Shown piece after piece: positions 48,812 to 52,204 of a stretch of DNA of 64,000 nucleotides (the first letter of the stretch is position 1; each line of letters begins with the position of its first letter). Origin of the DNA: Hyphomicrobiales bacterium (lineage in GTDB: Bacteria > Pseudomonadota > Alphaproteobacteria > Rhizobiales > Xanthobacteraceae); contig JAFKKG010000016.1 in assembly GCA_017305715.1 (NCBI GenBank), forward strand, positions 186,001 through 250,000, in the 5' to 3' direction. The notes beneath the pieces are model-generated. The model was not told where the DNA came from. It made no database searches and saw only the letters and a list, made by a program, of their open reading frames with translations. The position numbers and the translations under genes were made by a program.

Positions 48812-49462
48812 TCAGGCCGCGATCGCCATCGCCTGATTGCGCCGGCGATAAGCCATGAAGCCGACGCCGGCAAAACCCAAGATCAACATCGCCCAGGTGG
48901 ACGGCTCGGGTACAGCAGCAACCTGCGGCGTAAACGGCGTTTGACCGGTCAATGCGGCATTGCCGATATTGAAATATCCGCTGACGAACGTGTTGCTGAA
49001 GTCCGGATTGCCGCCCGGCGCAAGGTAGATTTGAAACGTTCCGCCCGAGATCAACAGATCGTACTGACTCCCGGCATGCGTGAACAACAGGTTCGCCGCG
49101 AAGCCGTTGAACTTTCCGTTGTTGTACTGGATCGAAGCGAGCGGATCGTTGCCCAAGTTGAACGAGAGCGATCCAAGCGAGAAGTGAAACGCGGTGGCTG
49201 CCGGAATCGAACCGATGTCCGGGAAGGATGAGAAGGCAACATTCTGAAATCCGGAACCGGCGGCCGGGACGAGAGAACTGTCAAACACGAGCCCGCCCGT
49301 GAAGGTTGAATTCGGCGCGACCACGCCAACGAATGGTGAATTAACGTTGGGTCCGCTGAATACGCCGCCGGAAAAATTTGCGCTCACATAGACGTCGGCG
49401 GACGCACTACCCACGCTGAAAAACGCAGCAGCAATACCAAAAGCAATTGTACTAATTTTCAT
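48812..49462 (-). CDS. PEPxxWA-CTERM sorting-domain protein
   Basis: This is a 216-residue exported protein. A signal peptide ([19 protein letters not shown]) leads to a beta-rich body ([40 protein letters not shown]). The C-terminus is the sorting signal [20 protein letters not shown] followed by AYRRR, the alphaproteobacterial PEPxxWA variant that an exosortase recognises. No exosortase gene is in the window. It is probably a surface or matrix protein. GGGGAA precedes ATG 49462. The gene is less GC-rich than its neighbours. Confidence 0.92.
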
Positions 49463-49760
49463 TTTGACGATTCCCCAGCTGAATTTGAATAAACTAAGCA
49501 GTAAAGATTGCATTAATATCGCGTGCACGCAAACATATTGCGAGTTCCCGTTCCGGAACACAACCGAGGGTTATCTTGCCTTGATCGCTATATGGATTCG
49601 GGAATAGCGGAACTCGTAATTGCACCTGAAACTAGAATTCTAGTACAAGCACACTTAATTCGACGTGCGGCGATGGGTAACCGGAATTGTGGTGGCCAGG
49701 TTGTGGTAGCATTGCACTTATTTCGGCGTATCCGCGCCGACGGCCTTCCGGAACCCGGCA

Positions 49761-49788
49761 TTGACTGGAACCTTTTCGTACCTACATG
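49761..49788 (+). promoter_or_regulatory. Candidate promoter of the small RNA at 49795
   Basis: TTGACT (49761-49766) and TACATG (49783-49788) are separated by 16 bases, fitting a sigma-70-type -35/-10 pair. The predicted start at about 49795 falls exactly at the first hairpin of the candidate RNA. Confidence 0.5.
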
Positions 49789-49794
49789 GGGGAT

Positions 49795-49911
49795 GTGCGA
49801 TGGCGCCTCGCGCCGTCGCTGCCCTCAGAGCAAATCAGCCTCGCTGATTTGGCTTGGGCGTTTCCTCCCCAGACTTGGGCCGCTTGTTCACACAAGTGGC
49901 CCTTTTTATTT
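49795..49911 (+). ncRNA. Candidate alpha-r14/NfeR1-like small RNA
   Basis: About 117 bases fold into three stem-loops. Hairpin 1 is GCGATGGCGC-CTC-GCGCCGTCGC, 10 bp with one G-U pair (49797-49819). Hairpin 2 is CAAATCAGC-CTC-GCTGATTTG, a perfect 9 bp (49831-49851). Hairpin 3 is GGGCCGCTTGT-TCAC-ACAAGTGGCCC, 11 bp (49877-49902), followed by TTTTTATTT. CTC in both loops and the single-stranded TTTCCTCCCCAG could bind Shine-Dalgarno sequences. Size, three stems and these motifs match the alpha-r14 family (NfeR1 in Sinorhizobium meliloti). No credible reading frame covers it. Confidence 0.6.
49877..49911 (+). terminator. Intrinsic terminator of the 49795 small RNA
   Basis: GGGCCGCTTGT and ACAAGTGGCCC form an 11-bp stem with one G-U pair and a TCAC loop, followed by TTTTTATTT. 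It is the third hairpin of the candidate RNA; no + strand gene precedes it for more than 1 kb. Confidence 0.85.
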
Positions 49912-50401
49912 GCCCATCGATATGCCGTCGCGCTGCGTTGCGCAGCTAAGGTGACGTGCTCGCTGCAATTCGGGATTACGTATTCCGAGCCGTTGGATTG
50001 CGATCCTCATGCGCATCCGTTTTGCGGCAACGTGCCGCATCACCGCGCTTCTCCACGGACGAATAAATGAACGGACACGATTCTGGGGTGAATTTTCTGT
50101 GCTCGTTTTTCGCGGAACGCGGCGTGATCGCTCGTGCGAAGCCGCCGAGCCGGGTGGCGCCGATGTGGGGGCGCGGCTTCATGAGGCCAAAGCTCTGGTT
50201 CGTGCTGACGGTCTCGTCGTTCGGACTGCAGATCGGATCAACAGGCCCCGGGCGCGCGGTCTCCCTGAACAACGACGTGGCCATCGACAGGGCGGCCGCG
50301 CCCGTATAGCGGACACGTCAATTGAATGCACTGGACCGAAATCCGAAATTACCGAGATGGGACCCGCATGTCGCGTTGCTCAGCGGGCCGCATACAACTG
50401 T
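49912..50401. other. Intergenic region between the small RNA and repeat copy B
   Basis: No gene is supported here. Frames on both strands are short, start without ribosome binding sites and show no domain. A short frame at 50181-50309 begins like a signal peptide (KLWFVLTVSSFGLQIGS) but stops after 42 codons, so it may be the front end of a lost secreted protein. The flank (49463-49760) on the other side of the small RNA is also without a gene. Confidence 0.4.
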
Positions 50402-50920
50402 GCCCGACGGGCAAATCATGTGTTCTGAATTTCGGAATTCGTGTCAAGCCCCAAACTAAAAAATATTTTGCTTTTACAGAATGCCAAATCAGCGCTACGA
50501 CTTTGCCCATCCCGCCCTGGTCAGAAGGGCGTCGGCCGTCGTCACGGACGTTGGGCGGGGAGCGGTGGACGTAGAGGTTGTCGCCTGACGAGCGCGGCCG
50601 AAGCGTACGGCAAAAGCGTGTGGTCCCGACGTCGCGTTGCTGACGTCCATGCTCCTGGAGGCGTCTGACTTCCCAGGGCGCAACGGAGGCAAAAGAGCCG
50701 TTCTCCGGGGAGAGCACGTGATAAGCCGTAAAGCCACCGCGCAGGGAATGTCGGATGTTCTCCGCTGCCCTGTATGCTCATGTGCGCACTCTCTTGTGCA
50801 CATTGCACATGAGACCGCGGGTGCAGCGCGCATCCGGCATTCCCTGCGCCCTCCATTTGAAGAGGGCGGAGAATTTCTGGCAAAGCTCGGGCGCATCGCG
50901 CCGCGAGAACGCGAATTTGC
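50402..50920. repeat. Long interspersed repeat, copy B
   Basis: About 519 bases here align along their whole length with 15661-16170, in the same orientation, with scattered substitutions and short length changes. Differences fall in all frames (for example GTTATAAGCC versus GTGATAAGCC), as expected for non-coding sequence. It lies between the small-RNA locus and the TPR pair. Confidence 0.8.
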
Positions 50921-51090: not shown

Positions 51091-51630
51091 TCAGTAAACC
51101 AGGCCGGTCCCCGGCGGCTTTTCGAGCGCTGCGGCAAGCGAGCGATATTCCTCGCTCGAAGTGCCGGTGAGCGCGGCGATCTTGTTCAAATGGTATTGCG
51201 CCTGATCGCGGTTGCCCTGTTCGACCTGCCACAGGCCGTAATACTGCCAGGTCTTGACGTGGTTCGGATCGGCCTTGAGCGCGCGCTCGTACCAGACCTG
51301 CGACACCTTGTAGTCGCCAAGCTGGCGATAGGAGTAGCCGATCAAATTGGCGACCGCTGCGCTGTCGTCACGGCCGAGCGCCTTCAGTTGTTCGATCGCG
51401 GACGCGTAGTCGTGGCGGTCATAGATCGTGGCATAGGCGGCGCGATAGCCGGTCGCGAACGCGGTTTCCTGGGTGGCGGGGCGCATCTCGCTGGATTTCT
51501 TCTTCTTGCCCTTGTCCGGCGGCGGCGGATCGTTGTCGGGCGCCGCATAAACCACGGTGACGACGGGCGCCGCCACCAGCGTCAGCGACAACATCGCCAA
51601 AGTCAAAAGCCTGATTGCAAGTTTGCTCAT
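51091..51630 (-). CDS. Exported TPR repeat protein, paralogue 1
   Basis: This is a 179-residue periplasmic protein with a signal peptide (LAMLSLTLVAAPVVTVVYAA) and a charged linker (PDKGKKKKSSEMRP). Two or three tetratricopeptide repeats fill residues 60-165: YAATIYDRHDYASAIEQLKA, LIGYSYRQLGDYKVSQVWYE and KTWQYYGLWQVEQGNRDQAQ. TPR domains bind partner proteins. It is followed 46 bases upstream by a close paralogue at 51677 in the same direction, with the last 60 residues nearly identical, so the pair arose by tandem duplication. Confidence 0.88.
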   Translation of the reverse strand: MSKLAIRLLTLAMLSLTLVAAPVVTVVYAAPDNDPPPPDKGKKKKSSEMRPATQETAFATGYRAAYATIYDRHDYASAIEQLKALGRDDSAAVANLIGYSYRQLGDYKVSQVWYERALKADPNHVKTWQYYGLWQVEQGNRDQAQYHLNKIAALTGTSSEEYRSLAAALEKPPGTGLVY

Positions 51631-51676: not shown

Positions 51677-52204
51677 TCAGTAGATGAGGCCCGTTCCGGG
51701 CGGCTGTTCGAGGGCGGCGGCCAGCGAGCGATATTCTTCGCTGCCGGTGCCGGTGAGGGCGGCGATACGGTTCAGGTGATATTGCGCGGAGTCGCGGTTG
51801 CCCTGTTCGACTTGCCACAGGCCATAATACTGCCAGGTCTTGACGTGGTTCGGATCGGCCTTGAGCGCGCGCTCGTACCAGATTTGCGACACCTTGTAGT
51901 CGCCGAGCTTGCGATGGGCGTAGCCCAGCAGATTGGCCACCGGAGCGGTGTCGTCGCGGCCGAGCGCCTTCAACTGATCGATCGCGGCGGCATAGTCATT
52001 GCGATCATAAATCAGGGCATAGGCGGTGCGATAACCGGCCAGCGATCTCGGGTCCTCGATGTTCGAGGTCCGGCCCTTCTTCGGCTTGGTGTCGGATTGC
52101 GGCGGCGGGGGCGGATCGCCGCCGGCATAGGCCGAGAACACCGGCGCGGCCAGCGCCGCGGTGAATATGGCCAAGGTCGAAAGCCTGACGGCAACGCGGC
52201 GCAT
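51677..52204 (-). CDS. Exported TPR repeat protein, paralogue 2
   Basis: This is a 175-residue protein with a signal peptide (LSTLAIFTAALAAPVFSAYA) and a proline-rich linker (DPPPPPQSDTKPKKGR). TPR units at about 58-160 (YALIYDRNDYAAAIDQLKAL, KLGDYKVSQIWYERALKADP) match those of paralogue 1. The C-terminal 100 residues are almost the same, whereas signal and linker differ. It is transcribed first of the pair and ends in PPGTGLIY, like its neighbour (PPGTGLVY). Function unknown; likely an envelope scaffold. Confidence 0.88.
   Translation of the reverse strand: MRRVAVRLSTLAIFTAALAAPVFSAYAGGDPPPPPQSDTKPKKGRTSNIEDPRSLAGYRTAYALIYDRNDYAAAIDQLKALGRDDTAPVANLLGYAHRKLGDYKVSQIWYERALKADPNHVKTWQYYGLWQVEQGNRDSAQYHLNRIAALTGTGSEEYRSLAAALEQPPGTGLIY

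Follow-up and report, generated by a model that had tools for sequence, protein, structure and literature searches.

In the window, as we call the whole 64-kb stretch of DNA analysed here, the signals of a small RNA (sRNA) lie at 49761-49911 on the plus strand, downstream of a Peptidase_S10 gene. Upstream of the sRNA, a gene on the minus strand (48812-49561) encodes a PEP-CTERM motif protein. A putative sigma-70-type promoter at 49761-49788, with a -35 box TTGACT (49761-49766) and a -10 region CTACAT/TACATG (49782-49788; TACATG itself at 49783-49788), precedes a predicted transcript of about 115 nt at 49795-49911, the ends of which are inferred from an Rfam match, a held-out covariance model (R1) and the fold. 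The transcript begins with hairpin SL1 (49797-49819; 10 bp, loop CTC at 49807-49809), recognised by the fold and by double-sided pair changes, and continues with hairpin SL2 in an extended form (49820-49860; fold, loop CTC at 49840-49842). Most of the inner SL2 hairpin, including the CTC loop, is a 26-nt insertion at 49827-49852 as aligned with four syntenic relatives. The 10-mer TTTCCTCCCC at 49861-49870 is a single-stranded anti-Shine-Dalgarno stretch, with per-base unpaired probabilities of 0.83-0.99 in the fold computation, and is the predicted target-pairing seed. An intrinsic terminator, found by pattern scan and covarying in related copies, closes the element at 49877-49907, with an 11-bp stem (49877-49902) followed by TTTTT. 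The promoter-like boxes, the three stems, the CTC in two loops, the unpaired linker and the terminator of the original prediction are all present.

Folded as RNA, 49795-49915 reaches -60.1 kcal/mol compared to -37.3 kcal/mol (sd 3.4) for shuffled sequences (z -6.62; 0 of 200 shuffles equal it). Taken alone, the terminator pattern (1 site, 0.8 expected) and TTTCCTCCC (1 occurrence, 0.43 expected) are not significant, and a strict sigma-70 consensus scan gave 0 promoters versus 0.5 expected, leaving the TTGACT/TACATG boxes unscored. R1 covers SL1, SL2, linker and terminator, the more complete form found in Bradyrhizobium, and was built from 25 copies in other genomes, with own-genome and class C copies (see below) excluded; it matches 49791-49912 with 89.2 bits (E 4.4e-22). 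The next-best places in the window, both on the minus strand, have E 0.0077 and 0.081 and are taken as chance, R1 E-values being rough. Together with their conservation, the boxes, hairpins, linker and terminator form a combination that is far beyond chance, and decisively so, given the fold z-score of -6.6 and the 89 bits (E 4e-22) of the held-out model. In all likelihood, the element is a small RNA that stands alone, with promoter-like boxes and a terminator of its own. A protein-coding reading was rejected: at E up to 1, the three overlapping or neighbouring ORFs are without a Pfam match, and 3 of 4 syntenic relatives lack the ATG (49786) from which a 94-aa ORF would start.

An Rfam scan of the window by cmscan, which reports the best among overlapping clan members, assigns 49814-49917 to RF00519 (suhB; Makes More Granules Regulator, MmgR; alpha-r8) with 52.8 bits, the gathering score being 41. 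The core GGGCGTTTCCTCCC-AGACTTGGGCC, the outer SL2 stem GCCC/GGGC typical of the family and the terminator are shared with RF00519, whereas SL2 of the window RNA is 26 nt longer and its 10-mer ends in C where the family has U. This 10-mer, UUUCCUCCCC, has 9 of 10 bases in common with the alpha-r8 10-mer UUUCCUCCCU and likewise stands unpaired 3' of a hairpin. According to the accessible text of the founding report, representatives of suhB RNA are each flanked by a putative promoter and a terminator, and many species have several dispersed copies per genome (PMC1273637). At the window locus, the Rho-independent terminator has a covarying stem, and the putative -35/-10 boxes, although passed over by the strict sigma-70 scan, are common to four syntenic relatives, in which TTGA and GTACYTANAT are identical while the sequence further upstream aligns poorly. 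As for dispersed copies, the window's own genome has two places over the RF00519 cut-off and one just under it (at E below 1e-5 and with 150 of 382 candidates scored: the window copy and matches of 46.5 and 39.2 bits). Bradyrhizobium copies differ from the 77-position Rfam model in having an extra 5' hairpin, SL1, which the model leaves unpaired. Judged by its sequence, the window RNA is a member of the suhB/MmgR (alpha-r8) family.

We then asked how the structure is conserved in an alignment (A1) of 30 out of 67 distinct copies, picked for comparable SL1 length, with near-duplicates thinned and class B copies (see below) left out. Pairing holds in 98.6% of the cells of the three helices. Compensatory stem changes in homologous loci, which had been proposed as a check, were found: of 24 pairs, 8 show double-sided changes, in 20 cells compared to 2.9 after shuffling (0 of 500 shuffles reach 20); slid controls yield 1-5 pairs of this kind. 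SL1 and the terminator stem each have 4 double-sided pairs among 10 (counted pairs for the terminator). The SL2 outer stem, paired at 99.2%, is nearly invariant and so gives no covariation information. The stems are supported by covariation, with the signal coming from SL1 and the terminator. TTTCCTCCC is invariant in the 30 rows. Unselected folding of 94 copies gave at least two upstream hairpins plus a terminator hairpin in every case, and at least 7 of the 9 core bases are unpaired in the minimum-energy fold of 75 copies (44 of 60 with short SL2, including 2 truncated class B rows, and 31 of 34 with extended SL2).

RNAs of this family are genus-wide in Bradyrhizobium and have long been known. 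By DNA search, 193 of 195 genus genomes have a match, the exact core motif occurs in 186 of 190 (reversed-pattern control, 0 in each row), and 117 of 119 family genomes have RF00519 over the cut-off, only part of the first-look candidates being scored, so that copy counts are minima. The belief that such an RNA had not been described in Bradyrhizobium-type genomes does not hold either, as five suhB RNA copies in Bradyrhizobium japonicum were reported by Corbino et al. in 2005 (PMC1273637, accessible text). In our own grouping, the Bradyrhizobium copies appear to fall into three syntenic classes, A, B and C. Class A has a short SL2; among the best matches of the genus DNA search (L018-L046, not a random sample), all 28 loci other than the reference locus L027 match it along the RNA, and for 25 of them the match extends to flanking sequence, the exceptions being L019, L022 and L029. 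The neighbours of L027 are a gene for a suhB-type inositol monophosphatase (PF00459) and one for an N-formylglutamate amidohydrolase. The class A setting resembles the founder position, since the first suhB RNA element was seen adjoining a COG0483 gene in Agrobacterium, again according to the accessible text (PMC1273637). Beside this locus lies an element of about 100 bases (L027:1055-1156) that swamped a DNA search for the founder locus in the window's own genome, where most of the 40 matches listed are due to it, at 75-95% identity; it is perhaps a Bradyrhizobium REP-type repeat.

Class B, a conserved second form, is marked by a sequence signature that 85 of 190 Bradyrhizobium genomes, among them that of the window, carry once each. 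All 30 class B loci read (L170-L199, L183 and L077 being one locus) have an extended SL2, and all share with L077 an upstream stretch holding an SNase-domain gene. The window RNA is like class B in its extended SL2, and the class B signature occurs in its own genome, where it matches the window copy alone; unlike class B, the window locus is syntenic with Peptidase_S10. Class C is this locus itself. Of 80 named loci, four have an R1 copy downstream of the peptidase gene, those of Bradyrhizobium sp. SZCCT0428, 0180, 0176 and 0158 (peptidase identity 83-84%), and L140 has an RNA copy elsewhere in its stretch. In the other 75 loci, some of which end early at contig ends, R1 found none at E up to 0.001. 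L118, a MAG contig with a peptidase fragment 85% identical over 422 residues, has no copy within 5 kb downstream.

The window copy has peculiarities of its own. The four class C relatives have a short SL2, and the insertion (26 nt compared to three of them and 24 nt compared to the fourth) is present in the window copy only among the five. It breaks the CUCCUU loop that SL2 has in the family, and the CTC loop now sits on a longer arm. The 10-mer of the four relatives is the UUUCCUCCCU of the family. Conversion from class B was considered as a source of the SL2 insert, whose likeness to the class B hairpin falls short of significance (among 2000 hairpin shuffles, 219 and 159 are as good). In its own genome, the exact core pattern occurs at the window place only; two other CGTTTCCTCCC places were rejected as copies, since R1 scores 8.6 bits at L200 and has no match at L202. 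Since the inositol-monophosphatase protein next to the founder locus has only matches of 28-32% identity in this genome, and the class B signature is found only at the window copy, class A and class B copies seem absent, subject to the 51-contig assembly. We consider it decidedly unlikely that in such a lineage, without founder locus and class B copy, the hairpin insertion in the class C copy has produced a long CTC-looped SL2 arm as an NfeR1-like convergence on several exposed pyrimidine loops, with altered target choice or Hfq dependence.

What could the RNA do? The closest guide is provided by the Caulobacter alpha-r8 RNAs SisA-D, in which a single-stranded UUUCCUCCCU, named the alpha-r8 core, lies below a weak hairpin. 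Hfq associates with SisA, whose UUUCCUCCCU pairs with the 5' UTR just upstream of the start codon and represses the target, a pairing proved by compensatory mutations; on carbon starvation, SisA is sponged by CrfA (all from the accessible text of PMC12559287). The window RNA has in common with SisA-D an unpaired UUUCCUCCC downstream of a hairpin, an intrinsic terminator and several dispersed siblings, whereas knowledge of targets and of the CrfA sponge is confined to Caulobacter. By this homology, an sRNA of about 115 nt would be transcribed from its own putative promoter and bound by Hfq, and the unpaired GUUUCCUCCCC would pair with the Shine-Dalgarno regions of several mRNAs, which would block ribosome binding and repress them. 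With SisA as the homologous model, the most likely function is repression of several mRNAs, with whose Shine-Dalgarno regions UUUCCUCCC would pair, assisted by Hfq. Because the SL2 insertion breaks the CUCCUU loop, the linker 10-mer is likely the main seed of the window copy. For Sinorhizobium MmgR, the accessible text describes an Hfq-dependent RNA that keeps polyhydroxybutyrate in check and for which no direct target is known (PMC7143759). Phasin mRNAs, which belong to this MmgR-linked function, gained no support as targets. Eight candidate starts from four of five loci gave duplex energies of -3.2 to -10.7 kcal/mol, unremarkable beside the background median of -8.2 kcal/mol for 49 window ORFs, in a crude screen with guessed start codons, no scored start for L169 and duplexes scored without accessibility. 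Overall, we have high confidence that the window element is a dispersed suhB/MmgR (alpha-r8) paralogue acting in trans, with transcription, Hfq binding and mRNA repression expected from homology.

The alternatives have to be weighed against this reading. The architecture at the locus had originally been attributed to alpha-r14/NfeR1 RNAs with three equivalent anti-Shine-Dalgarno loops, and the three hairpins, the CTC in two loops and the unpaired CCUCCCC are indeed what such an RNA would offer; anti-Shine-Dalgarno chemistry and occurrence in Rhizobiales are common to both. However, the proposed search with the alpha-r14 covariance model (RF02344) gave nothing at the locus, where RF00519 scores above gathering, and the sole match in the window's own genome at E up to 10 lies elsewhere with 14.4 bits, far from the cut-off of 58.8 (150 of 223 first-look candidates scored). 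CCUCCUCCC, which each of the three alpha-r14 hairpins bears according to the accessible text, has 0 occurrences in the window, and NfeR1 is reported there to be Hfq-independent (PMC10746234). The CTC loops as an anti-Shine-Dalgarno motif stood the comparison in part only: the linker is conserved, but the CTC in the SL1 loop is present in just 17 of 60 short-SL2 and 2 of 34 extended-SL2 copies and is therefore not a conserved anti-Shine-Dalgarno motif. We give the alpha-r14/NfeR1 identity next to no credence. An alpha-r15 identity was likewise rejected; RF02345, which we take to be the AbcR family, has its best match in the genome elsewhere, with 18.4 bits and a cut-off of 40 (150 of 202 candidates scored).

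Within the suhB/MmgR family, the window copy may be drifting, since it has the sole SL2 insertion among five class C copies. Read as relaxed selection, the insertion and the U-to-C change of the last base of the 10-mer, which departs from the family, would mark a decaying, non-functional alpha-r8 paralogue, and the negative strict sigma-70 scan fits with this as well. Yet the insertion folds as a long hairpin that leaves the 10-mer open, SL1, the terminator and the promoter boxes have stayed intact, and the exact core pattern survives in this genome at the window place alone, making decay unlikely. That the RNA works chiefly as sponge or decoy for its fellow small RNAs, and not by repressing mRNAs, is very improbable: alpha-r8 RNAs do join sRNA-sRNA pairing in the case of CrfA-SisA, but SisA is the titrated partner there and represses mRNAs when free, as stated in the accessible text (PMC12559287). 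Against the trans-acting suhB/MmgR paralogue that we favour, we count the same promoter scan and 10-mer base, the lack of a copy in L118, and a phasin pairing that is nothing special.

In the open-access literature as far as its text is accessible, outside which several key papers lie, we found no description of the window locus or of an extended-SL2 form. The locus is newly described and the family already known; only the enlarged second hairpin is unusual, and otherwise the copy is ordinary, with modest structural variation. The claim of an alpha-r14 RNA in Bradyrhizobium is removed as false for this locus, which gains a tested identity in a family for which Caulobacter work of 2025 established the mechanism. 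With at least three syntenically distinct suhB RNA loci, Bradyrhizobium offers a practical set for asking if siblings are redundant.

The surroundings of the sRNA gave two minor observations. Downstream, a segment at 50403-50571 has a counterpart of about 75% identity in the syntenic relative L029/L080, and this L029 sequence also matches the own-genome contig L202 at 75%; it looks like a dispersed intergenic repeat. Further on, adjacent genes at 51091-51630 and 51677-52204 on the minus strand encode similar TPR-repeat proteins (179 and 175 aa) and probably arose by tandem duplication.
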